A stretch of 64,000 nt of DNA from Pontibacter sp. HSC-36F09 (GTDB lineage: Bacteria > Bacteroidota > Bacteroidia > Cytophagales > Hymenobacteraceae), in the NCBI RefSeq assembly GCF_024171605.1, contig NZ_JALKAA010000002.1:248001-312000 (forward strand). Reading direction: 5' to 3'. The translations under genes were made by a program, and so were the position numbers. How positions within the stretch are numbered: the stretch's first letter is position 1; each line of letters starts with the position of its first letter. Under the pieces are notes generated by a model. The model ran no database searches and was not told the DNA's origin. It worked only from the letters and a program-made list of their open reading frames with translations. Of the stretch, positions 1 through 14,936 are shown in pieces.

Positions 1-243
1 GGGGGAGTGGCCGGCACTGTGGCCGACCCGAAAATGATCTTCAAAAAGGCCATTGAGCAGCTGGCAAGCTCCGTTATTTTAGTGCACAACCACCCCAGCG
101 GCAACACCAAACCCAGCGCCGCCGACATCGCCCTTACCAAAAAAATGAAAGAGGCTGGACAGTTTCTGGACCTGCCGATTCTAGATCACATCATCTTCAC
201 TGATAGCGATTACTATAGCTTCGCTGATGAGGGGATGCTTTGA
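1..243 (+). CDS. radC: RadC/JAB-domain protein, C-terminal part (5' end outside window)
   Basis: The reading frame is open from the first base and stops at 243, so only the C-terminal 80 residues are present. It carries the JAMM/MPN metal-site signature of RadC proteins, HNHPSG followed by an Asp seven residues later (PSAAD), preceded by the GGVAGTVADP segment. RadC family members are annotated as DNA-repair proteins, but their biochemical role is unsettled; the fold is a metal-dependent protease-like domain. The next gene is convergent and separated by a long hairpin at 265-340. The upstream part and true start cannot be seen. Confidence 0.93.
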   Translation, partial: GGVAGTVADPKMIFKKAIEQLASSVILVHNHPSGNTKPSAADIALTKKMKEAGQFLDLPILDHIIFTDSDYYSFADEGML

Positions 244-264
244 GTTTGAGAAAACTATTAAACT

Positions 265-340
265 TGTCATTTCGAACGCAGTGAGAAATATGGATTTGCA
301 GGCCTATACTTTCAGATTTCTCACTGCGTTCGAAATGACA
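265..340. repeat. Perfect 25-bp inverted repeat between convergent genes
   Basis: Bases 265-289 and 316-340 are exact reverse complements (25 of 25), separated by a 26-base loop. The left arm begins TGTCATTTCGAACGCAGTGA. From general knowledge, similar words (GTCATTTCGAACGAAGTGAG type) are scattered between genes in many Bacteroidota genomes as palindromic repeats. Its place between the 3' ends of radC and the YwbE-family gene would suit a bidirectional terminator or a REP-like element. No second copy of this arm was seen in the window. Confidence 0.9.
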
Positions 341-348
341 TTAAAGCT

Positions 349-549
349 CTAATCTTCTTCTAAAACTTCCTTCACACGTCCCACTTCACCTGTCTCCAGC
401 CTTACTTTGATGCCGTGTGGGTGGTTAGGTGATTTAGTTAAGATGGCCTCTACATAACCCTCGGTTAAGTCACCGGTGCGCTGGTCTTCCTTGAGCACGA
501 TGTTCACGTGCGAGCCTATTTTGATGTTGCTGCGTTTGGTGCCGTCCAT
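349..549 (-). CDS. YwbE family protein (DUF2196)
   Basis: This 66-residue protein matches the YwbE family throughout: N-terminal DGTKRSNIKIG, the central VLKEDQRTG segment, then SPNHPHGIKVRLETGEVGRV, which is the family signature. YwbE proteins are small single-domain proteins of unknown function with an SH3/KOW-like look; no signal peptide or membrane segment is present, so it is expected to be cytoplasmic. It ends near the 265-340 hairpin and starts 5 bases from the stop of the next minus-strand gene, so it may be cotranscribed with it. Confidence 0.88.
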   Translation of the reverse strand: MDGTKRSNIKIGSHVNIVLKEDQRTGDLTEGYVEAILTKSPNHPHGIKVRLETGEVGRVKEVLEED

Positions 550-554
550 GGTGC

Positions 555-1073
555 TTACTTCTTGGGTTGGGGCTTGGAGGTGATATGCAAAAACTCCTCT
601 TCGTCGTTTAGGCTCCAGCGTACCGGGGCCGTGATGTCTTGCTTTACAACTTCTACTTTTTCGATCTGATCCAGGTTGGCCAGTATCAGGCTGGTGTCTT
701 TTACAAGCTTGTTATTGATCACCACTTTCAGGTTTTGCTGAGCCGCAGGTATACGGTAATGGGTATAAATATCCTGCATCGTGGAAAATGCTGCCGTGGA
801 CTTGGCCTTGATGAGAATAGCGCCGTCTTTGGCTTTGTCGCCAAATTTGCCCGTAGCATTTTCGTCTTTCAGCACGTCAATACTTTCGATGTTGTCGGGT
901 TTTATCAGCGCCAGGCTAGGCTGCGCGATCTGCTGCCCGTTTATCTGGATGTAAGGCTGCGGTTGTGACACCAACCCTTGCTTTTGCTGCTCCTTCGGGT
1001 GAATCAGTTCCTGTTGCGCAAAGGCCTGCAAACTGCAACCCGCTAGTAGGAGAGAGAAGAGTAGTTTTTTCAT
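555..1073 (-). CDS. Secreted protein with two TonB-plug-like repeats
   Basis: I chose the start at 1073 because it gives a normal signal peptide (MKKLLFSLLLAGCSLQAFAQ); the frame is open 15 codons further upstream, but those codons precede the Lys-Lys n-region. The mature protein has a segment IESIDVLKDENATGKFGDKA followed by DGAILIKAK, which resembles the plug-domain motif of TonB-dependent receptors and the C-terminal region of BlaR1/M56-type proteins in Bacteroidota. A weaker second copy (NLDQIEKVEVVKQD) follows about 65 residues later. It is far too short to be a receptor (172 residues). Function unknown; a periplasmic or envelope-associated interaction module is an inference. Confidence 0.8.
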   Translation of the reverse strand: MKKLLFSLLLAGCSLQAFAQQELIHPKEQQKQGLVSQPQPYIQINGQQIAQPSLALIKPDNIESIDVLKDENATGKFGDKAKDGAILIKAKSTAAFSTMQDIYTHYRIPAAQQNLKVVINNKLVKDTSLILANLDQIEKVEVVKQDITAPVRWSLNDEEEFLHITSKPQPKK

Positions 1074-1119
1074 GGGAATGTTTTTTAGGAGTAACGTCAG
1101 CTTGTGCCGGCTAGTCATT

Positions 1120-1566
1120 TTAATCTAGAGGTATATGTCGGAAATCTGAGAGTTTATAGCGTTCTTTTGCCAGGTTGTCCAGCCACTTGCCTTCTAACTT
1201 GGTAAGAATATGGCTAAACACATGCTTGCCCTCTGCGCCCTCAGCTACTCTACCTATCTTCGCTGCAGAGTCGGCTCTCATTTGTTGCTGGTCAGCCTGC
1301 ACCAAACGCTCGATTAGTTGATAATCTTCTATGGTGAGCACAGGCTCTGTAAAGCCACTCTTGTCAAACCGGATCAAATTGTTCACTTCTTCGGAGTTAT
1401 TGAAACCTGCCTCTAGTAGCTTTTGAAAATAGATCAGCTTAAACTCTTCGATGTAGATCTGTTTATACTGTTGCCTGAGCACTTTTTGCCTGCTAGTGGT
1501 GCATTGGGTGAAAGTGACGAGCAAAAGAAGCAGCGCGATGGAATAAGTGGCTGTAGACTTAAGCAT
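1120..1566 (-). CDS. Hypothetical lipoprotein, helical
   Basis: A 148-residue protein with an N-terminal hydrophobic stretch ending in a Cys (LLLLVTFTQC, Cys about residue 22), consistent with a lipoprotein signal although the lipobox is imperfect. The rest is charged and probably alpha-helical, with many Gln, Glu and Leu residues. I do not recognise a family. It lies just upstream of the plug-like gene on the same strand with about 46 bases between, so the two may form a short operon of envelope proteins. Confidence 0.72.
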   Translation of the reverse strand: MLKSTATYSIALLLLLVTFTQCTTSRQKVLRQQYKQIYIEEFKLIYFQKLLEAGFNNSEEVNNLIRFDKSGFTEPVLTIEDYQLIERLVQADQQQMRADSAAKIGRVAEGAEGKHVFSHILTKLEGKWLDNLAKERYKLSDFRHIPLD

Positions 1567-1647
1567 GATGCTAAATTAAAACAAGAATGTTAATATAGTT
1601 GGATTTGTAAGAACGGCTCACCTTTAGGGAAACAAGAACCGACAAGC

Positions 1648-1821
1648 TCACCGCTTATGCTTCCGGATATTCCACCACGTGTTGATAATGGACAGTCCTA
1701 AACCCGCTCCGATGAAAGCCCAGCCGATATACTTGTTTTCGAAGAAATGCCCGATGCTGATGATAGCACCTGCCACAGCTAATAGTACAGCAAAAAATCC
1801 GACCAGATTGAATGATGTCAT
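1648..1821 (-). CDS. Small two-TM membrane protein (57 aa)
   Basis: A short frame starting ATG at 1821 and stopping at 1648 encodes 57 residues. Two hydrophobic segments (about residues 5-23 and 31-47, GWAFIGAGLGLSIINTWW) are separated by a short charged loop, and the C-terminus is basic (RKHKR), giving a typical two-helix hairpin with both ends in the cytoplasm. It occupies an otherwise empty gap between minus-strand genes. Family not recognised; composition and topology argue for a real gene. Confidence 0.62.
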   Translation of the reverse strand: MTSFNLVGFFAVLLAVAGAIISIGHFFENKYIGWAFIGAGLGLSIINTWWNIRKHKR

Positions 1822-1950
1822 ATGCTTTGTTTAAATCCAGGTATAAGCAAAGTCAAGAGCCTGCTGAAAGTAAGTTACATAGAATCTTTTATATATTCTT
1901 CCCCAACTTCAATATTTCTGCCTGCCTCACGGGTATCTCAACTCCCAAAC

Positions 1951-3627
1951 TCAAAACAGCTCCTTGAGCAATTGAAAAAACTTCGGTCGGGTATAGGAAA
2001 CGGCGCCTATGTCGGGTGCAGCGGTCGACTCAATTTGATTGCCGAAGATGTCTTCTGTGGCTGGAGCAAATGAAGGAGGGAGGGGCACCGCTATACCTTT
2101 GTCGATAAGCGGTGATTTTTTCTGAGGACTATACCTGTCGCGCAGGGCTTGTAAATCGAGCGGATAGCCCAGGGTGCCTGCCGTGCCTGGTGCCTGTAAC
2201 TGTGGGTCTGCCACCATACCTGTCGGACTGCCGTTTATCGCTTCCTGACCAGTGGCTGCCTGAAAATCGGGCAGGGAGGTATAGCGAACATCGCCCCACA
2301 CAAAGGTATAGCGGCCGTCTTCGCTGTAGTAAGCATTGTGATGAAAAGAAACATCCATCGTCGTATCAGTGGCTACCAACATGGGGGCTCCGTTGCGACT
2401 GTAGAAGATGTTGTTGAAAAACCTGACGTTATGGTGACCGCCGCTTTTGAAGAACACGCCTCCGCCGGAAGGGGCAACCGCACTGTCAGCAAAGATGGTG
2501 TTGTTGTACACGAGCAAGTCCAGATTGCCGCCTCTTTCATGGTTCTCCACCCACAGCGTGATGCCCTTGTAATCATTTTTGCGGCCGTCGTTTTCCGAGA
2601 TGTTGTACCGGATGATGTTGTTACGCATCGGGCGGGCCCACTCAAACTGCGCAATCAGAAAACCTGCGCCGTCGTTGTCGTGCGAGTAGTTGTACTGCAT
2701 CACGGAGTTGGACACGCCGCCGTCCAGATCAAAGCCGCCGCCGTCGCAACCGCTGCCCGCGCTCATGTTGTAGGCCTCGTTGTATTGGATGGTGATGTTG
2801 TTGGCGTCCCAGGCCCAGATGCCGATTGGTCCGCCACAGTTCTTGTTCTGCATGCCCGAAGTATGGACCACGCTGTGCTCTATCGTGCTGCCGTCCACAT
2901 CAGACAGCACAATGCCGCTTCCGCTGTGCTTATCGGGGAGTATCAGCCCGTAAATTTTATACACATGGCAGTGCCCGATGTAGATATTTTGGTGCGCGTA
3001 GCCGGTTTTGGTATGGTCGAACTGTCCGTAGGTGTTGATGCCGACCGAGTCGATGTCGTGTACGACGGCCTTTGTGATGCGGGCATCCCGGAAACCGCTG
3101 TTGCCGTTCCAGGCGCCCAGCGTGATGCCGGATTTCCGGAAGCCGCTCACCTCCACCTGGTCTATGACGATGTGCGGCAGTTTCACATCGCCGGGCAGGT
3201 CGTTGTAGAAAAGGATGCCGTGGTTGGTGTTGCGGGTATAGCCACTGCCCCGGAAATTCAGATCCCGGATTTCTATACCTGCCACATTGTACGCATAAAA
3301 GCCGTAACTGTCACCCGCATCAATGGTAGCGCGGCCTTCGCCATAAGAGCTGATGACCAGCGGAGCACCTTCGCCCTGGAGATTTTCCTGATGAAAATAA
3401 AGCCCGCCCGAAAAGGTATAGCCGCCTTCGAGCAGCAGCGAATCGCCGGGGCTATACCTGTGCTTGTTCGCTTTGGCGATGCTGCGCCAGGCGGAAGCAG
3501 TCGTGGTGCCCGTGTTGGCGTCATTGCCTTTGGAACTGATGTAATAGGTGTGCGCCAAGGTATAGGGTGCTGTGCAAAGGTATAGGCCGATAGAAAATAG
3601 TAGGGCCAGGGCCATTTTCATAGTCAA
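1951..3627 (-). CDS. Secreted right-handed beta-helix repeat protein
   Basis: A 558-residue secreted protein. An N-terminal signal peptide (about residues 1-25, ending TLAHT) is followed by YYISSKGNDANTGT...AWRSI, the usual opening of right-handed parallel beta-helix proteins related to pectate lyases and polysaccharide-degrading enzymes. The body contains many short repeats with Asn/Gly turns (for example HNVRFFNNIFYS, IIRYNISENDG). The C-terminus (KFFQLLKELF) shows no recognisable type IX sorting domain. A carbohydrate-binding or lyase role in the periplasm or at the surface is likely, but substrate and catalysis cannot be assigned. A second Met at residue 3 or 5 is an alternative start. 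Confidence 0.86.
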   Translation of the reverse strand: MTMKMALALLFSIGLYLCTAPYTLAHTYYISSKGNDANTGTTTASAWRSIAKANKHRYSPGDSLLLEGGYTFSGGLYFHQENLQGEGAPLVISSYGEGRATIDAGDSYGFYAYNVAGIEIRDLNFRGSGYTRNTNHGILFYNDLPGDVKLPHIVIDQVEVSGFRKSGITLGAWNGNSGFRDARITKAVVHDIDSVGINTYGQFDHTKTGYAHQNIYIGHCHVYKIYGLILPDKHSGSGIVLSDVDGSTIEHSVVHTSGMQNKNCGGPIGIWAWDANNITIQYNEAYNMSAGSGCDGGGFDLDGGVSNSVMQYNYSHDNDGAGFLIAQFEWARPMRNNIIRYNISENDGRKNDYKGITLWVENHERGGNLDLLVYNNTIFADSAVAPSGGGVFFKSGGHHNVRFFNNIFYSRNGAPMLVATDTTMDVSFHHNAYYSEDGRYTFVWGDVRYTSLPDFQAATGQEAINGSPTGMVADPQLQAPGTAGTLGYPLDLQALRDRYSPQKKSPLIDKGIAVPLPPSFAPATEDIFGNQIESTAAPDIGAVSYTRPKFFQLLKELF

Positions 3628-3676
3628 AAATATTCAGGTGCAGGTATAGCCGACTCCAGACTATACCTGTCAGAGT

Positions 3677-5539
3677 CTAAATGTCGGCGCCGCTGATGGG
3701 CATTGCCAGTTCCGATACGTGCAGTGGACGGAGCATGGATGTTTTCTTGTGCTGGTGCTCCTGCATGCGCTGGAGTATATCGTCGAGCAGTTCCACAGCC
3801 CGCAGCACGTATGGCCCCTTGTTAAGCATCACGCAGTCAGCCCGCTGCGACATGGCGGCGTCCGTGATCTCGGCCCTTGACGGACGCCCCTTCTTGGCAA
3901 GTGACTCGAGTACCTGCGTGGCCCACACCACCGGTATGTGCGCCGCCTCCGTTATCCACAGAATCTCCTCCTGCACTTCGGCCAGGCGCTGCCAGCCGCA
4001 CTCCACGGCCAGGTCGCCGCGGGCAATCATGACGCCCACCGGGTGGTTTTTCATGACGGTCAGGAGCAAATGAGGCAGGTGGCGGAAACCTTCCTTCGTC
4101 TCGATTTTGAGGATAATGCCCAGGCGTGGCGGTGCCTTCAGGCGCTTCAGTTCCTTGTGCAGCGCCTCGATCATCTCGGGGTGGTTCACAAACGAGAGAC
4201 TCACGATGTCAGCATGTTTCACCACGAATGCAAGGTGCTGACTGTCTTGCTCCGAGAGCCCGTTCAACTGCAAATCGCTTTCGGGCAGGTTGATGCCCTT
4301 GTCGTGCAACAGGCGGCTTCCGGTCTCTTTCGCTTCGGTAATTTTCACGAGCAAGTTATCTTCGCTCACATTCATGATCACGCCCGCTATTTTGCCATCG
4401 TCAAACAAGATCGGCTGGCCTGTCTTTACGCGACTGAATACCTCAGGCAGGGTACAGGCAATACGCGCTGGTTTTACAATATGCCCCTCGGCATCGTAGA
4501 GAGCAGGCTCACCGGGCGCTTCATCTTTGGTGAGTATCAGCAAATCGTCTTTGCGCAGGTAGATGGGTGCCACGCTGGCAGGCAATTCGCCCACCTTAGC
4601 ACTGCGCTCCAGGGCGCTCTTTTTAGTAATGGTGAGTTCGGTGCCCGTGCCGATATAAGAAGATTTGAACAGGTGCGCGATGACGCCTTTATCTTTGCGA
4701 TGCATCACCGTGAAAGTGCGGCTGCGACCGCGTGTGTCTCTGAACTTAAGCTTATCGCCTTGTTGCAGCTGCGCCACCCAGGCCTCGTCGACGGGCAGGC
4801 TGGCGTCTGTGGGCACCTCATTCTCCACACCGGCAGGGGCGAGCCATACCTTGGCGGGCGACACGAGCTGCCCCAGTTCGTTCTGAATCGGGCGGATGGG
4901 CAGCAGGGCGGGGCCGGGTTTGAGCGGACCCGTGCGCAGTTTGGGTCCCATCAGGTCCATCAGGATCTTGCAGCTATGGCCCGTCTCCTTTTCGGCCTTC
5001 CGGATGGATTGAACCATGGTTTCCCATACCTCCTCGTCATCGTGGGCGCAGTTGATACGGGCGCAGTCCATACCTGCCAGTAGCATGCGCTTAACCAGTT
5101 CGTAGTCCTGGGCCAGTTCGGTGGAAAAAGTGACCATGATACGGGTGCTGCGTTTGGGAGGTCGGGGCCCCAACAGTTCGCTCGTGTGCTTTTCGAGCAG
5201 CTCAACGCTTTCAGCATGTGAAACAGGTATGGGTTTTTCGGTGGGGGCACAGTCGAGCAGGTGGCAGAGCATGTTGTGCACCGCCTGCAAACTAGCCAGT
5301 ACATGTCCTTCGGAGCGACCCAGCGAGGAGAGCCCCAAACGGGCCAGGTTCTCCTGCAGCTGCCGTATGTCATGCTGCCGCAGCGACAGGTAGTGCAACA
5401 GGTTGCGGGCGCTCGTGCGGAAAGATGGGTGCACGCTTTTGATGGCTGTGGCAAACTTCTTTTCCAGTTCAAGGGCATCCTGTTGCAGCACGTCGAGCTG
5501 CGATATCATCTGGCGAAGTTGTTTCTCGTCTGTTTGCAT
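3677..5539 (-). CDS. Pyruvate kinase-like protein with N-terminal extension
   Basis: A 620-residue protein. Roughly the first 130 residues are helical and have no counterpart in ordinary pyruvate kinases. The TIM-barrel part follows: RIMVTFSTE, GMDCARINCAHDDEEVW, KILMDLMGPKLRTG, then KIETKEGF with Lys478 at the position of the catalytic lysine, ARGDLAVECG and WATQVLESLAKKGRPSRAEI. The C-terminal allosteric domain of pyruvate kinase is missing, and the segment following ADCVML reads NKGPY rather than the usual SGETA. It may be an active PEP/pyruvate enzyme with altered regulation or a repurposed paralogue. It is a single gene upstream of the beta-helix gene on the same strand, 49 bases apart. 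Confidence 0.85.
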   Translation of the reverse strand: MQTDEKQLRQMISQLDVLQQDALELEKKFATAIKSVHPSFRTSARNLLHYLSLRQHDIRQLQENLARLGLSSLGRSEGHVLASLQAVHNMLCHLLDCAPTEKPIPVSHAESVELLEKHTSELLGPRPPKRSTRIMVTFSTELAQDYELVKRMLLAGMDCARINCAHDDEEVWETMVQSIRKAEKETGHSCKILMDLMGPKLRTGPLKPGPALLPIRPIQNELGQLVSPAKVWLAPAGVENEVPTDASLPVDEAWVAQLQQGDKLKFRDTRGRSRTFTVMHRKDKGVIAHLFKSSYIGTGTELTITKKSALERSAKVGELPASVAPIYLRKDDLLILTKDEAPGEPALYDAEGHIVKPARIACTLPEVFSRVKTGQPILFDDGKIAGVIMNVSEDNLLVKITEAKETGSRLLHDKGINLPESDLQLNGLSEQDSQHLAFVVKHADIVSLSFVNHPEMIEALHKELKRLKAPPRLGIILKIETKEGFRHLPHLLLTVMKNHPVGVMIARGDLAVECGWQRLAEVQEEILWITEAAHIPVVWATQVLESLAKKGRPSRAEITDAAMSQRADCVMLNKGPYVLRAVELLDDILQRMQEHQHKKTSMLRPLHVSELAMPISGADI

Positions 5540-5702
5540 GATGTTAGAAGGTATAAGTAACAGGACTAAGGGTCTTTAGACAAAAGATAAAAGACAATAA
5601 AGTCAAGCCCTGTCATTCAATATTTTAGCATTTACGGTGTGCGCATTCATTTTTCCTGATACGCAGCATCCTATCAAACTGAAGGGATGGGTGCAGGGTT
5701 GT

Positions 5703-6647
5703 TTAAAAGCTATTCACCATGGCTCGGTGCAACGAATTGGAGCTCCAATAGCCACTCGCAATAATACGGCGGATGCTATGCAACGGGTCCTGCGGGTCAC
5801 GCTTATCGGCCAGTTGGAAAGCCGCTATCAGGCCACGCTGTTTCAATTCAGGTATAGCCTCCGGGTTCCAGAGTCCGAATGGGTAAGCGAAGTACTCGGT
5901 TGGTTTTCCTGTAATCTCGGCCAGCTGTCGCGAAGGTTTTTCTACTTGTGTTACCCAGTCCTGTCCCTGGTATTTCTTCACATTCTGATGATCCCAGGTA
6001 TGCGAGCCAATAGCATGCCCTTTATCTGAAAGCTCCTTTACCTGCGCTTTGGTCATGTAGTTAGGTCTGTCCAGCGATACGGTCATGATGAAGAACACGC
6101 CTTTGAAACCGTACTTTTCCAGCTCCGGTGCCGCCGCGGTATACTGCCCCAGGCTGGTATCGTCGAAGGTGAGCATTACGGGTTTTTTGGGCAGCGGGGC
6201 GCCGGTGGTGAGGTAGGCCAGCAACTGGTCGGGCAGCACGGTTTGGTAACCGCTGTCGGCCAGCATTTTGATGTGGTCTTTGAAGCGGTCTTCAGGTATA
6301 ATGTAATCTTTGGCCTGTTTGGAATCCTTTTCTCGCCAGTCGCGCACCTGGTGGTAGCACAGAATCGGCACCTGCTTGCGGGCGATGATGGTTTCGGCAT
6401 CGGCGATGGAGCTGGCTACCAGGGCCACAGGCTGATCCGGACCGGCAGGTATAGCGGCCAGCAATTGCAGACTGTCAGGTATAGGTATAGCGGTGTCGGA
6501 AAGGGCAGGTGCAACAGGTATAGCGGTTTCGACAGGTGAGAGGGTATCGGCGGTTTTGCCTTCCTGCACACAGGACGAAAAGCCAAAAAGCAACACGAAT
6601 AATAAAGCAAAAAAAGGTAGGCGGAAACGGAAGTAAGGGGATTTCAT
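5703..6647 (-). CDS. Polysaccharide deacetylase (NodB-domain) lipoprotein
   Basis: The start at 6647 gives a compact lipoprotein signal (MKSPYFRFRLPFFALLFVLL, then FGFSSC with Cys at residue 26). An upstream Met at 6668 is possible but adds a polar stretch. After a Pro/Ala-rich linker, the NodB domain shows VPILCYHQV, LTFDDTSLGQYTAA (the catalytic/metal Asp pair) and SHTWDHQNV (the metal HxxxH). Such enzymes de-N-acetylate or de-O-acetylate cell-wall or surface polysaccharides. Linker Ile-Pro dipeptides (AIPVAP, AIPIPD, AIPAGP) are encoded by the repeated CTATACCT word discussed in the findings. It stands alone, divergent from glpD. Confidence 0.88.
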   Translation of the reverse strand: MKSPYFRFRLPFFALLFVLLFGFSSCVQEGKTADTLSPVETAIPVAPALSDTAIPIPDSLQLLAAIPAGPDQPVALVASSIADAETIIARKQVPILCYHQVRDWREKDSKQAKDYIIPEDRFKDHIKMLADSGYQTVLPDQLLAYLTTGAPLPKKPVMLTFDDTSLGQYTAAAPELEKYGFKGVFFIMTVSLDRPNYMTKAQVKELSDKGHAIGSHTWDHQNVKKYQGQDWVTQVEKPSRQLAEITGKPTEYFAYPFGLWNPEAIPELKQRGLIAAFQLADKRDPQDPLHSIRRIIASGYWSSNSLHRAMVNSF

Positions 6648-6780
6648 GGTAGGATTTGTAAATGTCATAATGATAGCGAGTTTTCAGCTATTTTCCGAGT
6701 TTCTGAAGAGAATAACCGCTACCTTAAGCTACCATTTCTGAGAGAATCGTTAACCGCTCAATCTATACCTGAAACCGCCT

Positions 6781-8403
6781 ATGGCAGCTATTCCTTTTAC
6801 CCGCGAGGCCATGTTGCGCCAGCTTTCCGATGTGCCGGTCTGGGATGTGTTGGTGATAGGCGGTGGCGCCACGGGTTTAGGAACAGCGCTCGATGCTGCT
6901 TCGCGCGGGTATAAGACGCTCTTACTCGAGCAGTCCGATTTTGCGAAAGGCACTTCGAGTCGCAGTACCAAGTTGGTGCACGGCGGGGTGCGCTACCTGG
7001 CGCAGGGCAATATCCGACTGGTATTCGAAGCGCTGCGGGAGCGTGGACTTCTCCTGCGCAACGCGCCGCATGTGGTGTCGGTGCAGCCTTTTGTAATCCT
7101 TTGCTACAGTTGGTGGCAGCGCTTTTTCTATGGCACCGGCCTCACGCTCTACGATTTGCTGGCAGGCAGGTATAGCCTGGGCCGCACCGCCTGGTGGAGT
7201 CGCAAAACCGTGCTCGAGCGCATGACGAATATCAAATCCGAAAACCTGAAAGGCGGCATTGTGTACTACGACGGGCAATTCGACGACGCCCGACTGGCTC
7301 TGAACCTCGCCCAAACCTGCGCTGAACAGGGTGCAACGGTGCTGAATTATGTTCGTGTGACAGGCTTGACCAAAGACGCTGAAGGAAAAGTGAATGGTGT
7401 GGAGGCGGTAGACCTGGAAAGTGGCCAGCCTTATACCTTGCGGGCCAGAGCAGTGGTGAACGCGACTGGCGTATATGTAGATGAAATTCTGCAACTCGAC
7501 CAACCTGCCCAAAACCCACTGGTGATGCCGAGTCAGGGCGTGCACGTGGTACTCAATAAGTCTTTTCTGCCAGGCGATGCCGCCCTGATGATTCCTAAAA
7601 CGCCGGATGGTCGCGTGCTTTTTGCTATACCCTGGCAGGAGCATGTGTTGGTCGGCACAACCGATACCCCGCTGCAGCAACTGAGTCTGGAACCTGTGGC
7701 GTTGGATACGGAGATTAACTTTATCCTGCAAACCGCTGGAGCTTATCTGCAGAAGTCCCCGACCCGACAGGATGTGCTGAGCGTGTTTGCCGGCCTTCGT
7801 CCCTTAGCTGCCCCTAGTAGCTTAACCGGTAGTACCAAGGAGATTTCACGGAGTCACAAATTGCTGGTAGCTCCTTCAGGGCTGATCACCATCACAGGCG
7901 GCAAATGGACCACTTACCGCCAGATGGCCGAAGACACTGTGAACGCCGCTATCCGGGTGGCGGGGCTGCCTGCTATACCTTGCCGTACGGAGAGATTGCC
8001 CATACACGGTGCTATACCTTCGTTACCTATACCTGTGCCTAATGATCCTGGAGGATTTGCTATTTACAGCAGCGATGCAACGGCTTTGCAGGCACTGATG
8101 CAGTCCGAACCTGAACTGGCCCACAAGCTGCATCCTGACTTTAGCTATACCTTGGCCGAAGTGGTTTGGGCGGTGCGGTACGAGATGGCCCGTAGCGTGG
8201 AGGATGTGCTGGCCCGGCGATTGCGGGTGCTGTTCCTTGATGCCCGCGCTGCGCAGGAAATGGCGCCTGTGGTAGCCGAAGTCATGGCCCTCGAACTCAA
8301 TCGCGAGGAGGTGTGGCAGCGGGAGCAAACAGCAGCCTTTGAAATGCTCGTTAAACACTATCTGCCACAAGCCACTGAAAAGCCGGCCGTGCGGTCACAT
8401 TGA
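6781..8403 (+). CDS. glpD: Glycerol-3-phosphate dehydrogenase (FAD-dependent)
   Basis: A 540-residue protein of the GlpD/GlpA family, which oxidises sn-glycerol-3-phosphate to dihydroxyacetone phosphate and passes electrons to quinones at the inner membrane. The FAD dinucleotide-binding motif VLVIGGGATGLGTALDAASRG lies near residue 24, followed by the family signature KGTSSRSTKLVHGGVRYLAQG. A second signature, ITITGGKWTTYRQMAEDT, is near residue 370, and the C-terminal alpha-helical domain is complete. No glpK or glpF is adjacent, so it is a stand-alone gene here. A poorly conserved linker near residues 395-425 contains several Ile-Pro pairs encoded by ATACCT. Confidence 0.96.
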   Translation: MAAIPFTREAMLRQLSDVPVWDVLVIGGGATGLGTALDAASRGYKTLLLEQSDFAKGTSSRSTKLVHGGVRYLAQGNIRLVFEALRERGLLLRNAPHVVSVQPFVILCYSWWQRFFYGTGLTLYDLLAGRYSLGRTAWWSRKTVLERMTNIKSENLKGGIVYYDGQFDDARLALNLAQTCAEQGATVLNYVRVTGLTKDAEGKVNGVEAVDLESGQPYTLRARAVVNATGVYVDEILQLDQPAQNPLVMPSQGVHVVLNKSFLPGDAALMIPKTPDGRVLFAIPWQEHVLVGTTDTPLQQLSLEPVALDTEINFILQTAGAYLQKSPTRQDVLSVFAGLRPLAAPSSLTGSTKEISRSHKLLVAPSGLITITGGKWTTYRQMAEDTVNAAIRVAGLPAIPCRTERLPIHGAIPSLPIPVPNDPGGFAIYSSDATALQALMQSEPELAHKLHPDFSYTLAEVVWAVRYEMARSVEDVLARRLRVLFLDARAAQEMAPVVAEVMALELNREEVWQREQTAAFEMLVKHYLPQATEKPAVRSH

Positions 8404-8442
8404 CGAATTTTTTCCGAAATTGCAGCAAAATTACCCAACCCC

Positions 8443-9075
8443 ATGCAACGACCCTTCAAAATCATCATAATGGCCGGCATTGCGCTGGTGCTTTTCTATT
8501 TTGTGCGCGAGTCTTTTCTGAGCGACGACAATTACCTGATTCCACTGAAAAAAGAGCGGGAGGAAAAAGACCTGTCGTTTCGCGGCCGCACGAACAGTCC
8601 TTTTGAGGAAGCCGACCGCAGGATGTTCACCAACCTGATGTATTACGAGCCCAACCTGGACTACCGCGTAAACGTGAAACTGGAAGACATTTCCCCGAAA
8701 GACACGGTGCACATGCCCATGACCAACGGCAGCACCGAGGCTTACATGCGCTATGCCATCGCCAATTTTGAGCTAAACGGAGAGCCGCAGCGCCTGACGC
8801 TCTACAAAAAGGTGAAAGAGGAAGAAGATAAGCTGTTTGTGCCCTTTACCGATAAAACCAACGGTTTCGATACCTATGGCGGTGGTCGCTACATGGATGT
8901 GCCGATCAAAGAAGGCGCCAAAACGGCCACCCTCGACTTCAATCGCGCCTACAGCCCTTTTTGCGCCTACAACCCTGAATACGTATGCCCGGTGCCGCCC
9001 AAAGAAAACCGCCTGACTGTGGCAGTGGAGGCCGGCGAGAAAAACTACGATAAAGTGCATCCGGTGGTGGAGTAG
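8443..9075 (+). CDS. DUF1684 domain protein, membrane anchored
   Basis: A 210-residue protein with one N-terminal membrane anchor (about residues 6-22). The DUF1684 core is recognisable from LFVPFTDKTNGFDTYGGGRYMD, DFNRAYSPFCAYNPEYVCP, then VPPKENRLTVAVEAGEK near the C-terminus. The N-terminal half of the full-length family domain (DGWLTLAGLFWL type) is missing, in contrast to the paralogue at 54605-55534. Function of the family is unknown; a conserved pair of Cys (FCAYNPEYVCP) suggests a disulfide outside the cytoplasm. It begins 39 bases after glpD and may be cotranscribed. Confidence 0.85.
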   Translation: MQRPFKIIIMAGIALVLFYFVRESFLSDDNYLIPLKKEREEKDLSFRGRTNSPFEEADRRMFTNLMYYEPNLDYRVNVKLEDISPKDTVHMPMTNGSTEAYMRYAIANFELNGEPQRLTLYKKVKEEEDKLFVPFTDKTNGFDTYGGGRYMDVPIKEGAKTATLDFNRAYSPFCAYNPEYVCPVPPKENRLTVAVEAGEKNYDKVHPVVE

Positions 9076-9184
9076 GGCTTTTTTGTGTCACCCAACTCGT
9101 ATCAGGTAACACGATCGCTTTCAGGAAGTACTCGACAAAGGATTTTATAGAAGGTGCTATACCTGAACGCTCCATCGCTATATC

Positions 9185-9241
9185 GGATTTGTAATCTGCC
9201 TGCCAGCAGCTACTGCCTCTGCGATTGCGGATTACAAGTCT
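9185..9241. repeat. Imperfect inverted repeat (REP-like) in the glpD-pheT gap
   Basis: In the 338-base gap between the DUF1684 gene and pheT, GGATTTGTAATC (9185-9196) and GATTACAAGTCT (9230-9241) pair over nine uninterrupted bases, with a GC-rich, self-pairing loop (CCAGCAG near 9203, CTGCTGG at 9240). Similar GGATTTGTAATC/GATTACAAATCC palindromes are common between genes in Bacteroidota, from general knowledge. The rest of the gap holds no convincing ORF: one copy of CTATACCTG near 9158 and an AT-rich stretch before pheT. Confidence 0.55.
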
Positions 9242-9352
9242 GCTGGTCATAAACTTTCGGATTGCAAACTGAAAGAGCAGCCTCTGGTGAGGTAGCTTCA
9301 TCTAAAATTCCTTTGTCCTATTGGCTTTTATCAAAGAGCAAAGAAAAATCCT

Positions 9353-9360
9353 TAATTTTG
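9353..9360 (+). promoter_or_regulatory. Candidate -7 box (TAATTTTG) for pheT
   Basis: TAATTTTG fits the Bacteroidota -7 consensus TAnnTTTG and lies 53 bases upstream of the pheT start. No TTG sits at the expected 19-21 base distance upstream, so the -33 element is missing or weak. Confidence 0.4.
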
Positions 9361-9413
9361 GGAATTAGCTTCAACCGAACGGGGCTATACCTTACAGAAC
9401 AACAAAAATAACC

Positions 9414-11831
9414 ATGCTGATTTCATTCGACTGGCTGAAACAACTCATTTCTATAGATAAAACCGCTGAAGAAACAGGCGCCTTGCTGACAGGCTCTGGT
9501 CTGGAAGTGGAAGCGATTCACAATTTCGACCAGGTAAAAGGCGGTCTGGAGGGCATCGTGATAGGCGAAGTGCTGACCTGTGAGCGCCATCCGGATGCTG
9601 ACCGCCTGAGCGTGACCACCGTGGATATAGGCACAGGCGAGCCAAGCCAAATTGTGTGCGGTGCGCCCAACGTAGCTGCCGGACAGAAAGTGGTAGTGGC
9701 GACCGTGAACAGCACGCTATACCCTAGCGGTGGTGAGTCTTTCAAAATCAAGAAATCAAAAATACGCGGAGCTGCTTCCGAAGGTATGATTTGCGCCGAA
9801 GACGAGATTGGCGTCGGCACATCCCATGCCGGCATCATGGTGCTCGACACCGATTTGCCAAACGGTACGCCTGCCGCTGAGTATTTCGGTCTGGGCTCTG
9901 ACAAGGTATTCGAAATCGGATTAACGCCAAACCGCGCTGATGCCGCTTCGCACCTGGGTGTAGCCCGCGACCTGAAAGCCCTCTTGCGTGTGCCTTATAC
10001 CTTGCCTTCTGTAGAAGATTTCAACGTGAGCAATACGACCCGCCCGATTGAGGTGGAGATCGGAAACATAGAGGCCTGCCCAAGGTATGCCGGTGTAACC
10101 GTGAGCGGCGTGAAGGTGGGACCTTCGCCGGAGTGGCTGCAGAAGCGCCTGCGTGCCATCGACCTGGCCCCGATCAACAACATCGTGGACGTGACCAACT
10201 ACGTGCTGCACGAGTTGGGTCAGCCGCTGCACGCGTTTGATGCTGATAAAATAAAAGGCAATAAGATTGTCGTGAAAACTGCCGAAGCCGACAGTAAATT
10301 CGTGACGCTGGACGGTGTGGAGCGCAAACTCAAAGCCAACGACCTGATGATCTGCAACGCCGAAGAACCGATGGCGATTGGCGGTGTTTTCGGTGGCAAA
10401 GAGTCGGGAGTGAGTGAAGAAACAACGAATATTTTCATCGAAAGTGCTTACTTCTCGCCAGACTACGTTCGCCGCACAGGTATGGCGCACAACCTCAAAA
10501 CCGACGCGTCATTCCGTTTCGAGCGCGGCACCGACCCGAATATGGTGATTACCGCTTTGAAGCGTGCTGCTTTGCTTATACAGGAAGTGGCTGGCGGTGA
10601 GATTAGCTCTGAGATTGTAGACGTATACCCGCAGGCGATTCAGAACCTGGAACTGACGCTGGATATTGAGCGTGCTCATATCTTAATCGGTCAGCACATT
10701 GGCGCTGAGCGCATGAAAGAAATCCTGACCGACTTAGGTATAGAAATCACCGGCGAAACAGAAGAGAAGCTGCATGTTTCTGTGCCGCCGTTTAAAGTAG
10801 ACGTAACCCGCGAGGCCGATTTGGTGGAGGAAATCCTGCGCATTTACGGTTTCAATAACATCGAGGTGAGCGAGCACATGGCCACCACCTACATGGCCAG
10901 CTTCCCGAAACCTTACCCGGAGGACATCACGGGCACCATACTGGATTACATCTCGGCTAACGGCTTCCACGAGATCATCACCAACTCCATTACCAACTCC
11001 AACTACTATGCCGCTGGCGGAGACGAGGAGATGGCCGGGCTGGTGAAAGTGCTCAACTACAACAGCGAAGACCTAGACGTGCTGCGCAAGAGCATGGTGT
11101 TTTCGGGTCTGGAAGTGCTGCGCTACAACATCAACCGCCGTCAGCGCGACCTCAAGGTATACGAACTCGGCAAGGTATACGAGCAACTGGAAGACGGCTA
11201 CAAAGAGACCCGCAAACTGGCGCTTTACATGGTAGGCAACACCACCGCCGAAAGCTGGAAGCAGCCCGCCCAGAAAGTAGCTTTCCATGACCTGGCAGGT
11301 ATGGTGCAGAACGTGCTGCAGAAACTCAACGCTGCCGACTACGAAGTGCAGGCCATTGAGCAAAGCCGCTATATGCGCCAGGGCATCACCTACGTGAAAA
11401 ACGGCACCGTGATCGCACAGGTCGGTTTGCTGGACGCAGCCGTGACCAAAGCCATGGACGTGAAAGAACAGGTATGGTACGCCGAACTCAACTGGGACTA
11501 CCTCATCAAGAAATACAAAGACAAACTGGTGGCCGAGGAGTTGCCGAAGTTCCCGGAAGTGCGCCGCGACCTGTCGCTGGTGGTGGACAAGAACCTGACC
11601 TTTGAGCAGCTGAAGCAAATAGCGCTGCGCACCGAGCGCAAGCTCCTGCAAGGCGTGAACGTGTTCGATGTGTACGAAGGCGATAAGATAGCCGCAGGCA
11701 AGAAAGCCTATGCTTTGAGCTTCACGTTGCTGGACCGCCAGCAAACTTTGACCGACAAAGTGATCGATGGCGTGATGAACCGCCTGATGCAGCAATTTGA
11801 GAAACAGCTGGGAGCCATTATCCGCAAATAG
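9414..11831 (+). CDS. pheT: Phenylalanine--tRNA ligase beta subunit
   Basis: The 805-residue length and domain order match PheT: N-terminal EMAP/tRNA-binding domain (about residues 40-155, with IVIGEVLTCERHPDADRLSV), B3/B4 editing region, B5 domain (GFNNIEVSEH area), catalytic-like core and C-terminal FDX-ACB anticodon-binding domain (FPEVRRDLSLVVDKNLTFEQ...). With PheS, encoded elsewhere, it forms the alpha2beta2 synthetase that charges tRNA-Phe and edits mis-attached Tyr. Three bases separate it from the coiled-coil gene, which indicates cotranscription with the zapA cluster. Confidence 0.98.
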   Translation: MLISFDWLKQLISIDKTAEETGALLTGSGLEVEAIHNFDQVKGGLEGIVIGEVLTCERHPDADRLSVTTVDIGTGEPSQIVCGAPNVAAGQKVVVATVNSTLYPSGGESFKIKKSKIRGAASEGMICAEDEIGVGTSHAGIMVLDTDLPNGTPAAEYFGLGSDKVFEIGLTPNRADAASHLGVARDLKALLRVPYTLPSVEDFNVSNTTRPIEVEIGNIEACPRYAGVTVSGVKVGPSPEWLQKRLRAIDLAPINNIVDVTNYVLHELGQPLHAFDADKIKGNKIVVKTAEADSKFVTLDGVERKLKANDLMICNAEEPMAIGGVFGGKESGVSEETTNIFIESAYFSPDYVRRTGMAHNLKTDASFRFERGTDPNMVITALKRAALLIQEVAGGEISSEIVDVYPQAIQNLELTLDIERAHILIGQHIGAERMKEILTDLGIEITGETEEKLHVSVPPFKVDVTREADLVEEILRIYGFNNIEVSEHMATTYMASFPKPYPEDITGTILDYISANGFHEIITNSITNSNYYAAGGDEEMAGLVKVLNYNSEDLDVLRKSMVFSGLEVLRYNINRRQRDLKVYELGKVYEQLEDGYKETRKLALYMVGNTTAESWKQPAQKVAFHDLAGMVQNVLQKLNAADYEVQAIEQSRYMRQGITYVKNGTVIAQVGLLDAAVTKAMDVKEQVWYAELNWDYLIKKYKDKLVAEELPKFPEVRRDLSLVVDKNLTFEQLKQIALRTERKLLQGVNVFDVYEGDKIAAGKKAYALSFTLLDRQQTLTDKVIDGVMNRLMQQFEKQLGAIIRK

Positions 11832-11833
11832 TT

Positions 11834-12130
11834 ATGCCAAAGGAAAAACAACTGCAACAGCTTCAGTCGATTGAGAGCAAGGTGCGCCAGCTCTTAAACC
11901 GCCACACCGACGCGCAACAGAAGCTTGCCGCCGCGCAGGAAGAAATTAAAATGCTGGAGTCGCAGCTGCAGGAGCGGGAACAGCAAATAAAAAATTTTCA
12001 AAATCAAGAGAATATTGTTAAGATTGTAGATGCGATAGCAGGAAACACTGCAAATTCGACAGAGTTAAAGCTGAAGTTAAACGAATATATAAGGGAAATT
12101 GATAAGTGTATCGCCTACTTGCGTGACTAG
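11834..12130 (+). CDS. Coiled-coil protein between pheT and zapA
   Basis: A 98-residue protein, rich in Gln, Glu and Lys with heptad-like Leu/Ile spacing (about residues 5-60, EKQLQQLQSIESKVRQLL...), followed by a short helical C-terminus ending NEYIREIDKCIAYLRD. It has no signal peptide. Its location between pheT and zapA, small size and coiled-coil make a cell-division partner role plausible, analogous to the ZapA-ZapB pairing, but there is no sequence motif that proves this. It overlaps nothing and starts 3 bases after pheT. Confidence 0.82.
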   Translation: MPKEKQLQQLQSIESKVRQLLNRHTDAQQKLAAAQEEIKMLESQLQEREQQIKNFQNQENIVKIVDAIAGNTANSTELKLKLNEYIREIDKCIAYLRD

Positions 12131-12220
12131 CGGGAGGCAGTGAGCTGGAGCCGGACATACGGCAGGCCATTGTCAGGAAACAAAGAAACGAAGTGGCCCT
12201 ATACCTAAAAAACGCAACGG

Positions 12221-12505
12221 ATGGGTGAATTAGCTATTAAGATTCGCATCGCAGAACGCGAGTATCCGATGCGGGTGAAGGAAGAAGAAGAAGAAAGGCT
12301 TCGGGTAGTGGGTAAACTTTTGAACGAGCGCCTGCGCTTTTTCAAAGACCAGTTTGGCATACAGGACAAGCAGGACTTGCTGGCTATGGTGGCTTTTGAA
12401 ACCATGGTGGACAAGCTGAAGCTCGAGGATGACAAAAATGCCCATCTCGACAAAGTAGGTGCGCAACTGAGCGTGCTCGACGAGCTCTTATCAACAAATA
12501 AGTAA
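12221..12505 (+). CDS. zapA: Cell division protein ZapA
   Basis: A 94-residue protein with the ZapA layout: an N-terminal beta-hairpin region (LAIKIRIAEREYPMRV, then a charged EEEEERLR helix start), the long central helix, and the DLLAMVAFETMVDKLKLED segment typical of Bacteroidota ZapA. ZapA binds and bundles FtsZ filaments and stabilises the Z-ring at midcell. It lies 90 bases after the coiled-coil gene; the gap contains one CTATACCT word. A structured non-coding stretch follows before rny. Confidence 0.93.
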   Translation: MGELAIKIRIAEREYPMRVKEEEEERLRVVGKLLNERLRFFKDQFGIQDKQDLLAMVAFETMVDKLKLEDDKNAHLDKVGAQLSVLDELLSTNK

Positions 12506-12507
12506 AC

Positions 12508-12600
12508 CAAACCGAGACTGCCCCCTAAGCAGTCTAATTAACTACAGTGTGGTTTGTAAAGCCACTTCACTGTCTTGCTGCAGGTACTGCTATTGTTTTT
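12508..12600 (+). ncRNA. Structured intergenic RNA, possibly 6S-like
   Basis: The 117-base gap between zapA and rny can form several hairpins: AGACTGC (12515) with GCAGTCT (12529), and ACAGTGTGG (12544-12552) with CCACTTCACTGT (12562-12573). An alternative fold pairs GCAGT (12529) with ACTGC (12586) around an open bubble and the ACAGTG hairpin, which is the general shape of 6S RNA. A T-rich run follows (TATTGTTTTT). The position downstream of zapA is the classic ssrS place in Proteobacteria. Both folds are my own pairing by eye; a leader or attenuator for rny is the main alternative. Confidence 0.35.
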
Positions 12601-12622
12601 ATAAACCATAAAAGCGTATAGT

Positions 12623-14188
12623 ATGTCCGATATTTTAATCATTCTAATCACCGCCATTGTCGCGCTCGGAGTCGGCGTGTACATTGGGCGCGTACTCCTG
12701 CAAAAGGTATACAAACAGCAGGAGGAAGCTGCCCGCCAAAAGGCAAAATCCATTATCCGCGAAGCTGAAATCAACGCCGAAGGCATCAAGAAAGACCGCA
12801 TGCTGGAGGCCAAGGAAAAATTCCTGAAGCTGAAGTCTGAGTTCGAAGAAGAATCGAACAAGAAGAAGAACATCATCATTCAGAACGAGAACAAGGTAAA
12901 GCAGCGCGAGCAGCACGTGGCCAAGCAGATGGAACAGACCAAGCGCCGCGAAACTGAACTCGACAAGGAGAAGGAAGCACTCGACCACCAACTGGAAGTT
13001 CTCAAGAAACGCAAAGAAGAAGTAGAACAGCAGCACAGCGAGGTAGTGGCACGTCTCGAGAAAATAGCTGGTCTGACCGCAGCCGAAGCCCGCGAGCAAA
13101 TGGTAGAAGCCCTGAAAAGCGAAGCCACGTCGCATGCATCTTCTTACGTGAAGGACATTGTGGCCCAGGCCAAACTCACCGCTACCAAAGAAGCCAAGAA
13201 AATTGTGGTGGAGACTATCCAGCGTACTGCCGCGGAGCACGCCATCGAAAACTGCGTGTCTGTTTTCAACATCGAAAGCGACGACATCAAAGGCAAGATC
13301 ATCGGTCGTGAAGGCCGTAACATCCGCGCTCTGGAAGCTGCCACTGGTGTAGAAATCATCGTAGATGACACTCCGGAAGCGATCATTATCTCTGGTTTTG
13401 ATCCGGTTCGTCGCGAAATTGCCCGACTGTCGCTGCACCGTTTAGTAGCTGACGGTCGTATCCACCCGGCCCGCATTGAGGAGGTAGTTTCGAAAACCCG
13501 CAAAAACATTGAAGAAGAGATTGTGGAAATCGGTGAGCGTACTGCCATCGATTTAGGTATACACGGTCTGCACCCTGAACTGATCAAGATGGTGGGCCGC
13601 ATGCGCTTCCGCTCTTCTTACGGACAAAACCTGCTGCAGCACTCACGCGAAGTAGCCAACCTGTGCGCCACCATGGCCGCAGAACTTGGGTTGAACGTGA
13701 AACACGCCAAGCGCGCCGGTCTGTTGCACGACATCGGTAAAGTAACCCCAGACGAGCCGGAATTGCCACACGCGATCATCGGTATGGAGCTGGCCAAGAA
13801 ATACAAGGAGCATCCGGATATCTGCAACGCCATCGGCGCTCACCACGACGAAATCGAGATGACCGCGATGATTTCTCCGTTGATCCAAGCTTGCGACGCC
13901 ATCTCCGGTTCTAGACCGGGTGCCCGCCGCGAGATCATGGAGTCGTATATCAAGCGTCTGAAGGATTTGGAAGCTGCTGCCGTATCATTTGACGGTGTGA
14001 ACCAGTGCTACGCTATCCAGGCTGGCCGCGAACTTCGCATCATGGTAGACGCCGACAACGTGAGTGACGAAAAAGCCGCACAGCTTTCATTTGACATCTC
14101 GCAGAAGATCGAAAAAGAAATGCAGTACCCAGGCCAGATCAAAATCACGGTAATCCGCGAAATGAGAGCCATTAGCTACGCCAAGTAA
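12623..14188 (+). CDS. rny: Ribonuclease Y
   Basis: The 521-residue protein has the full RNase Y architecture: an N-terminal membrane helix (about residues 3-22, [19 protein letters not shown]), a long coiled coil (roughly 30-180), a KH domain with [15 protein letters not shown], and an HD hydrolase domain with LLHDIGKV and GAHHDEIE. RNase Y is a membrane-anchored endonuclease that starts mRNA decay. It is the last gene of the pheT-zapA stretch and is followed directly by a strong terminator at 14209-14244. Confidence 0.97.
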
Positions 14189-14208
14189 GGTATAGCCCAG
14201 GTATAAAC

Positions 14209-14244
14209 AAAAGCCGCCTGTTACTATTGTAGCAGGCGGCTTTT
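14209..14244. terminator. Rho-independent terminator between rny and dps
   Basis: AAAAGCCGCCTG (14209-14220) and CAGGCGGCTTTT (14233-14244) pair perfectly over 12 bases around a 12-base loop. A-rich and T-rich flanks on both sides suit termination of both convergent genes, rny and dps. Confidence 0.92.
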
Positions 14245-14277
14245 GCATTAAACTAAAACCAATCGTCACTTAAATTC

Positions 14278-14751
14278 TTAGCTCAGGAAAGCCTTCAGCA
14301 TCCAAAGCGTTTTTTCATTTTCGTTGATGTCTTCACTCACCAGCGCTACCGTACCTTCGTCGTCACGCTCGGCGGCCAGCGCCAGAATATCACGCTCCAG
14401 ACTTACAATCACAGACAGGTTCTGGTGCGTCGCTTCTACCGTTTCGCGGTCACCGCTCAGGCTTGATGCCTCCTGTATGCTCGACACACGCAGGTAGTCC
14501 GAGAAGGAATGCAGCGGCTTCTGGCCAATGGTCAGGATACGTTCTGCCAGCGCATCGATGCGGGCCAGCGCGCTGTTGTACAACTCCTCATACTTGGCAT
14601 GCAGCTGGAAGAAGTGTATGCCCTTGATGTTCCAATGAAAACCGCGCAGGTTCTGGTAGTAAATGTGATAGTTGGCCAATAACTCGTTCAGCTTGTCAGC
14701 AATTTCTACGGAGTCTTGTTTCTCCAATCCAATATTAGTCAGCTTATTCAT
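14278..14751 (-). CDS. dps: Dps family DNA-protection/ferritin-like protein
   Basis: A 157-residue Dps protein: LLANYHIYYQNLRGFHWNIKG carries the ferroxidase His, and FQLHAKYEELYNSALARIDALAERI supplies the remaining conserved Glu/Asp residues of the inter-subunit iron site. Dps dodecamers oxidise Fe(II) with peroxide, store iron and protect DNA. I chose ATG at 14751 over 14784 because the Bacteroidota promoter at 14782-14813 overlaps the upstream ATG, which therefore cannot be in the message. It is divergent from oxyR, the arrangement expected for a peroxide-induced gene. Confidence 0.95.
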   Translation of the reverse strand: MNKLTNIGLEKQDSVEIADKLNELLANYHIYYQNLRGFHWNIKGIHFFQLHAKYEELYNSALARIDALAERILTIGQKPLHSFSDYLRVSSIQEASSLSGDRETVEATHQNLSVIVSLERDILALAAERDDEGTVALVSEDINENEKTLWMLKAFLS

Positions 14752-14771
14752 AGTCTTGTATGTCTTTATTG

Positions 14772-14785
14772 TTTGTATATACAAA
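14772..14785. promoter_or_regulatory. 14-bp perfect palindrome at the dps start site
   Basis: TTTGTATATACAAA is a perfect palindrome that overlaps the dps -7 box (14782-14789) and the predicted transcription start. It could be an operator for a dimeric repressor; an OxyR site is less likely at this position because activators usually bind upstream of the promoter. It also supplies part of the -7 sequence, so its symmetry could be incidental. Confidence 0.4.
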
Positions 14786-14813
14786 TATACCCAAATTGTG
14801 ATTATAAACCAAA
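14782..14813 (-). promoter_or_regulatory. dps promoter (Bacteroidota type)
   Basis: On the minus strand TTTG (14810-14813) and TATATTTG (14782-14789) are separated by 20 bases, matching the Bacteroidota vegetative consensus TTTG / ~19-21 nt / TAnnTTTG. The predicted start lies near 14775, leaving a leader of about 25 bases before the ATG at 14751. Confidence 0.75.
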
Positions 14814-14931: not shown

Positions 14932-14936
14932 ATAGC

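Follow-up and report, generated by a model that had tools for sequence, protein, structure and literature searches.

The 64,000-nucleotide stretch of the Pontibacter sp. HSC-36F09 genome analyzed here (the window; G000:C2:248001-312000) is filled with an asymmetric 7-mer, AGGTATA, which is almost certainly held in place by retention at the level of the DNA and which we tentatively read, with a probability of roughly 0.4, as a label of self DNA resembling an uptake sequence, without a detected type IV pilus. The window contains 173 copies (90 forward and 83 reverse, the strands being alike), or about one per 370 bp, whereas 100 shuffles that preserved dinucleotides averaged 3.9 and never exceeded 10, and the 4.43-Mb genome contains 9,282 copies, or one per 477 bp, compared to 278 copies of the reversed word used as a control. 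This abundance is larger than was stated in an earlier reading of the same DNA made from its letters only (the sequence-only reading). Both in the window and across the 12 genomes of the AGG clade defined below, the word tends to be preceded by C and followed by G and then C. Enrichment extends to variants that differ in the first or seventh base (GGGTATAG, AGGTATGG), and variants at inner positions are close to or somewhat under the level of word-poor genomes. The palindromic GGTATACC was considered as the repeat unit and rejected, its 743 genome copies being far fewer than those of AGGTATA. An Rfam scan of the window returned nothing at the gathering score.

Across 50 Pontibacter genomes, the word occurs in three clade-linked spellings, AGGTATA, AAGTATA and AACTATA (hereafter AGG, AAG and AAC). 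Genomes were classified from samples of approximately 20-120 kb each (684 kb for this genome) and the three spellings were then counted in whole genomes, giving 12 AGG genomes (5,748-9,303 copies), 20 AAG genomes, four AAC genomes, four genomes with both AAC and AAG, and ten word-poor genomes. The last label is relative, since one genome so classed (G042) has 3,132 AGG copies compared to 545 of the reversed control; this genome is also enriched for the words GTATGGC and TTATACC, possibly a fading or a different spelling. The four two-spelling genomes were kept outside every group in the occupancy, log-odds, codon-pair and variant comparisons, and four stretches of the P. virosus genome G048 (L129 and L212-L214) were excluded from the occupancy, codon-pair and variant counts and from group densities.

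Opportunities for the word were defined as all places in called genes at which the peptide allows it by synonymous choice, genes having been predicted with a simple script based on hexamers and not taken from annotation. In this genome 966 of 1,987 AGG opportunities (48.6%) are filled, as opposed to 52 of 801 (6.5%) in the ten word-poor genomes; the remaining AGG genomes filled 500 of 1,281, AAG genomes 142 of 1,924 and AAC genomes 38 of 445. The AAC word fills 259 of 596 opportunities (39 of 715 in word-poor genomes) and the AAG word 742 of 2,484 (46 of 863 in word-poor genomes). Because the groups were defined by word abundance, this contrast arises partly by construction, and its informative part is its size and its spread over codon phases. 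Relative to word-poor genomes, the average log-odds of occupancy were 2.75 for AGG (this genome) and, each in the genomes of its own class, 2.63 for AAC and 2.20 for AAG; individual phases spanned 1.8 to 3.4, a broadly similar strength overall. Among the phases in this genome, Arg-Tyr is the least occupied (25.7%) and Lys/Gln/Glu-Val-Tyr the most (85.2%), with Tyr-Thr 80% and Leu/Ile/Val-Tyr-Leu 78% filled. Non-coding DNA also shows an excess over word-poor genomes, of approximately 8-fold for AGG, 20-fold for AAC and 8-fold for AAG.

The suggestion of the sequence-only reading that the word is retained was borne out by comparison of orthologues within the AGG clade, in which the word was kept exactly in 1,894 of 2,875 comparisons as opposed to a fraction of 0.319 for control 7-mers (ordered pairs of orthologues that share genomes and are thus not independent). 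When the amino acid was kept, the same codon was retained at a higher rate within the word than elsewhere for ATA (0.89 and 0.48), CCT (0.83 and 0.44), TAT (0.88 and 0.47) and GTA (0.99 and 0.46), and indeed for each of the eight codons represented by 30 or more cases. With the ancestral state set by an outgroup, 16 of 102 words were lost compared to 40.2 expected, and synonymous losses numbered 117 compared to 480.8 expected, about a quarter (847 overlapping comparisons at 26 distinct sites). Gapped comparisons were excluded from the retention, dialect-swap and loss and gain counts, and control 7-mers near words were excluded from the retention counts. Useful overlap of the other clade members with contig C1 of this genome was confined to the pheT region. 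Since 48.6% of opportunities are filled here as opposed to 6.5% in word-poor genomes, and synonymous losses are about a quarter of those expected, a force at the DNA level holds the word in most phases and not in protein linkers alone.

The sequence-only reading had also placed the word in the least conserved parts of proteins, had described the conserved gene pheT as poor in copies and had supposed linkers to be the one place where proteins tolerate the word. The placement agrees with our data, as conservation of the sequence flanking words was 0.828 compared to 0.928 at random positions (287 words in 12 genes with at least eight aligned clade members, pooled over related genomes and therefore non-independent), and flank conservation was lower in seven of the nine genes that offered at least four word cases, the other two (an RNase Y-like gene and one more) showing a slight opposite trend. 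A comparison by conservation class, which that reading had proposed, gave 6.2-fold enrichment where conservation is below 0.7 and 0.29-fold at 0.95 and above. Likewise, pheT has four copies in 2.4 kb as opposed to six in 0.96 kb of a polysaccharide deacetylase gene in the window. The supposed restriction to linkers does not hold, given that three of six words in the neighboring glpD-like gene lie outside its linker and that overall occupancy is 48.6%. We infer that the linker bias fits additional, amino-acid-changing copies, which would favor variable segments.

Codon-phase, density and orientation counts refer to 620 kb of contig C1 of this genome, in which the word occurs 17.3 times per 10 kb of coding and 38.2 times per 10 kb of non-coding DNA. 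It is oriented forward 633 times and reverse 677 times, with negative GC skew in all 16 bins, such that there is no overall replication-strand bias across these 620 kb; single 40-kb bins lean forward at G000:C1:40001-120000 (65/33 and 69/38) and reverse at 320001-360000 (35/63). Relative to transcription 403 copies are sense and 491 antisense. Neighbors within 40 bp are direct in 149 cases and inverted in 72, and close inverted pairs are not in excess. No spacing rule was found, a within-gene slope of -0.052 (standard error approximately 0.016) being biased negative by design and left unused.

At the protein level, the claim that Ile-Pro pairs in linkers are nearly always written ATACCT was correct, since all six Ile-Pro pairs of the deacetylase and all three in the GlpD linker read T-ATA-CCT; the other three of the six GlpD pairs lie outside the linker and read ATT-CCT twice and ATA-CCC once. 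The companion claim for Gly-Ile holds in part. Across the genome the word often writes this pair, with 346 of 936 Gly-Ile pairs reading GGT-ATA compared to 49 of 493 in word-poor genomes, but it does not do so in the two proteins named in that reading: Gly-Ile is absent from the deacetylase and the single GlpD pair is GGC-ATT (pheT has one Gly-Ile word copy). Nor is the pair itself in excess, with observed/expected ratios of 1.18 in this genome and 1.30 in word-poor genomes. For Ile-Pro the ratios are 1.15 and 1.17 in the AGG group as opposed to 0.96, 1.03 and 0.99 elsewhere, an excess that is modest and limited to the AGG group. The 895 coding copies comprise X-Gly-Ile (255) and X-Ile-Pro (159) as well as the tyrosine phases Tyr-Thr (177), Tyr-Leu (156), Val-Tyr (106) and Arg-Tyr (42).

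Whether the word forces ATA codons, as that reading had it, received a mixed answer. Words contain 442 of the 2,023 ATA codons of this genome, and ATA still makes up 14.6% of Ile codons outside words; because word-poor relatives use ATA for 24% of Ile codons, the word alone does not bring in this codon. Conservation of Ile-Pro with other codons in relatives, named there as a refutation, was seen at codon 124 of the deacetylase (ten of the 11 aligned relatives have Ile-Pro there and two use CCT) and not at codon 272 (Ile-Pro in all 11, mostly with the same codons, ATA-CCT in ten). The remaining four deacetylase sites fall in the variable linker, of which codons 72-74 read exactly GCT ATA CCT in all but one of the 11 AGG-clade genomes aligned (GCT ATG CCT in the exception); this string is often retained in aligned clade members while adjoining linker codons vary, and the other linker sites are retained more poorly. 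As part of the self-DNA reading set out below, to which we give slightly less than even odds, Ile-Pro pairs in linkers would be a by-product of the DNA-level force.

In a phylogeny built from pheT alone, the 12 AGG genomes form a single clade (support 100/100). The four pure AAC genomes also form one (100/98), nested in a seven-member clade whose other three members carry AAC and AAG together; the fourth two-spelling genome, G049, is placed elsewhere. The AAG and word-poor labels each require five changes, two of them imposed by branches with good support, and the five classes together require nine changes as opposed to a mean of 26.4 when shuffled. Along the mixed clade AAC climbs and AAG drops, with AAC/AAG counts of 6,094/9,116 in G013, 8,118/7,552 in G045, 11,674/5,110 in G015 and 12,524-13,168/1,956-2,318 in the four pure AAC genomes. 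A swap of dialects in place at first seemed strong (231 of 2,161 comparisons as opposed to 12 of 879 with word-poor genomes) and was then not used, because it reduces to four of 44 distinct sites and mostly to one site in pheT. Word-poor genomes measure 5.0-6.5 Mb and word-bearing genomes 3.8-5.5 Mb. In one word-poor genome (G036, stretch L118) ATATATA-type words are the most enriched, possibly a further word or simple repeats. Outside Pontibacter, in 100 genomes of five genera in which AAGTATA was the spelling counted, it reached at most about 2.5 times its control; 21-kb samples of related genera showed enrichment of other 7-mers, CCGGCTT in Adhaeribacter rhizoryzae (L018) and CTGGCCA in Rufibacter ruber (L019).

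A strand-blind, clade-linked force that acts with much the same strength at most sites and is absent in some lineages fits sequence recognition acting on self DNA. Under this reading, AGGTATA would be the clade spelling of an asymmetric recognition word of approximately 9 bp, cA-GG-TAT(A/g)(G)c, and a sequence-specific DNA-binding part of an uptake and recombination pathway would favor DNA that bears it. Each copy would be slightly favored in transmission or by selection (log-odds of about 2-3 per site), because of which the word would accumulate wherever proteins allow and mark self DNA. The spelling would change when the specificity of the receptor drifts, and a different kind of receptor would be involved, since no convincing type IV pilus ATPase was found. 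The fuller proposal of a pilus-independent recognition of self DNA in Pontibacter, with a 9-bp word in at least three spellings, a visible switch from AAG to AAC, about half of the codon runs filled and Ile-Pro added in linkers, is possible and a little more tentative still.

We know of uptake words only from two pilus-using proteobacterial families. The uptake sequence of Pasteurellaceae has an asymmetric core of similar length and has accumulated genome-wide, its sequence being unrelated and its uptake pilus-dependent; in Neisseriaceae, close inverted pairs of DNA uptake sequences that act as terminators are common and not universal. Like the Neisseriaceae sequences, the Pontibacter word has thousands of short copies, spellings that follow phylogeny, a fixed core, genomes with two spellings and conservation at permissive sites, but it lacks an excess of close inverted pairs and a spacing rule, and Pontibacter has no evident ComP-like pilin route because no convincing pilus ATPase was found. 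Passages of the Neisseriaceae papers describe dialects that follow phylogeny, with one genome carrying two (PMC3630211), and the conservation of copies where the core genome is permissive (PMC3630211, PMC2397512). For Bacteroidota, passages of two papers describe competence as possible without pili and R. columbina as preferring its own DNA (PMC8459023, PMC7965970). Riemerella thus offers pilus-independent competence in the same phylum, with ComEC present and pilus homologues unreported in those passages; it differs in that the same passages contain no uptake word and that the DUF5689 family, to which one essential Riemerella protein belongs, is patchy in Pontibacter. Among the matches listed by our literature search (preprints and most subscription papers lying outside it), no title or abstract links Pontibacter or the Cytophagales with an uptake word or an iterated word. 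A Bacteroidota genus with dialects, a seemingly ongoing switch, word-poor lineages and no detected pilus would be a natural test of how self-recognition words originate and spread, and its word a handle on the missing DNA receptor of Bacteroidota. The DNA-level signal shapes codon choice at scale and protein composition slightly and, even if uptake is not involved, a force that keeps some 9,000 copies demands explanation.

Several observations weigh against a self-DNA label. Matches to PF00437 (the T2SSE/PilB-PilT ATPase) were short (approximately 60 residues) and weak, barely exceeding the cut-off in three of 50 genomes (pilins were not searched). ComEC is matched in all 50 genomes, which would favor the label, yet it is equally present in word-poor ones, and the comEC match holds a stop in an AGG genome with 9,303 copies (G041:C76:160505-161305) and in an AAG genome (G021:C1:2771217-2771876), either of which may reflect sequencing error or recent loss. 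PF18942 (DUF5689), found in a Riemerella competence protein, is matched in 22 of 50 genomes and unmatched in this one. Spacing is uneven (10-kb counts with a variance of 47 and a mean of 21), whereas in Neisseria the spacing of uptake sequences is described, in passages of PMC2397512, as matching conversion tracts. Occupancy is higher where neighboring copies are present, opposite to the diminishing returns that an uptake label should show. Phases are not wholly uniform (Q of 10.6 with 5 degrees of freedom for AGG and 9.0 with 4 for AAC), no gains were seen at 81 near-match sites compared to 1.44 expected in a weak and biased test (a stricter test had one usable site), and the four of 44 distinct AGG sites that read AAGTATA in an AAG genome compare with five for another single-base neighbor. 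The literature search found no uptake or binding data for Pontibacter. The missing pilus, the uneven spacing and the association between neighbors would suit a site-autonomous process.

Among the rival explanations, the word could be the binding site of an abundant protein that organizes the chromosome, such as a condensation or nucleoid factor, with selection favoring dense occupancy. Its presence on both strands and in coding and non-coding DNA, its clustering and its lack of diminishing returns would all agree with this; word-poor lineages and coexisting spellings are not predicted by it, and no candidate protein was found, none having been looked for, such that we regard it as rather unlikely. 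Slightly less likely is an iterated word of the HIP1 type, whose copies would arise and persist through methylation of the whole word or its core in conjunction with mismatch repair or some other function. Passages of PMC4390886 describe HIP1 of cyanobacteria (GCGATCGC) as a strongly over-represented short word of unproven function, in place of which some cyanobacteria carry other HIP words, and occupancy without diminishing returns near neighboring copies would be expected of such a process. The Pontibacter word, unlike HIP1, is asymmetric and non-palindromic in both core and flanks, and none of four methyltransferase families (Eco57I, TaqI and others not being searched separately) is strongly matched in all word-bearing genomes: PF01555 was matched in 31, PF02086 in 13 and PF00145 in 23 of the 50 genomes, and PF02384 in all 50, weakly in five word-bearing ones. 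In G010, which has 9,120 AAG copies, the first three are unmatched and PF02384 is matched twice and marginally (best E 7e-5; open reading frames of 394 and 290 aa).

A Chi-like role, in which the word halts or diverts a nuclease of the AddAB/RecBCD type and persists through its benefit to repair, is about as improbable as the HIP1 type. Chi is likewise an asymmetric, short and over-represented word, less dense than that of Pontibacter. The Pontibacter word is dense on the chromosome and poor in one probable island (L129, described below), which would agree with such a role, and Chi is named among word classes in passages of PMC4390886; however, the near equality of forward and reverse copies reveals no overall replication-strand bias, single 40-kb bins leaning either way, and one copy per 477 bp with several near-saturated phases would seem to exceed the needs of single-break repair. 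Less probable again is a pure bias of mutation or conversion, by which a repair enzyme makes the word from near-matches without benefit or transfer. The lack of a spacing rule is in its favor, as is a moderate scarcity of some near-matches relative to word-poor genomes, chiefly at the third base (AGCTATAG, 1.5 vs 4.0 per 100 kb; AGTTATAG, 2.7 vs 7.2). As several positions and bases share in this scarcity, none of the mismatch types is emptied, which counts against such a bias, as does the absence of gains at near-match sites in the weak and biased test at average rates given above. Chance, codon bias or protein bias has nothing in its favor apart from the baseline occupancy of 6.5% in word-poor genomes, and is hardly conceivable as the source of the word given 173 copies compared to 3.9 in shuffles, 9,282 compared to 278 of the reversed word, and a density higher in non-coding than in coding DNA.

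Eleven copies of AGGTATA or its complement TATACCT lie within positions 6447-8153 of the window, and the features discussed are listed below. Among the matches listed for GlpD, from which the window's own genome was possibly left out, the nearest was from P. amylolyticus (88% protein identity).

Coordinates of word copies and genes in the window
Feature	Coordinates	Strand	Remarks
Whole window	1..64000	.	173 AGGTATA copies, both strands
Polysaccharide deacetylase with variable linker	5703..6668	-	PF01522; 6 word copies
Deacetylase word, Ile73-Pro	6447..6453	+	Coding-strand GCT ATA CCT
Deacetylase linker word, Ile63-Pro	6477..6483	+	Shares one base with the copy at 6483..6489
Deacetylase linker word, Ile61-Pro	6483..6489	+	
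Deacetylase linker word, Ile50-Pro	6516..6522	+	
Non-coding word shortly upstream of glpD	6764..6770	-	
GlpD-like FAD oxidoreductase	6781..8403	+	PF01266, PF16901; 6 word copies
GlpD word as Arg-Tyr, outside linker	7168..7174	+	
GlpD word as Tyr-Thr, outside linker	7432..7438	-	
GlpD linker word, Ile399-Pro	7974..7980	-	
GlpD linker word, Ile412-Pro	8013..8019	-	
GlpD linker word, Ile417-Pro	8028..8034	-	
GlpD word as Tyr-Thr	8146..8152	-	
pheT, conserved comparison gene and tree marker	9414..11831	+	4 word copies

A DUF5689 (PF18942) protein of approximately 430 aa is encoded about 8-10 kb from pheT in five genomes (G046, G013, G015, G018 and G029). The stretch poorest in words among those sampled in this genome is the ribosomal/rpo region, in which 15 of 83 opportunities are filled compared to 35.9 expected. 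This stretch was considered as a mobile island and rejected, the six open reading frames scanned in it being SecY, an M24 peptidase, ribosomal protein L2, EF-G, RpoC and RpoB. In P. virosus, L129 (G048:C1:20001-40000) has one copy in 20 kb, as opposed to 41 around pheT and 33 in another stretch of the same genome; the three 20-kb stretches that follow hold 10, 7 and 17 copies. The four open reading frames scanned in L129 encode an RND efflux protein, a P-type ATPase, an MmeI-family enzyme and a CoiA-like nuclease-domain protein.

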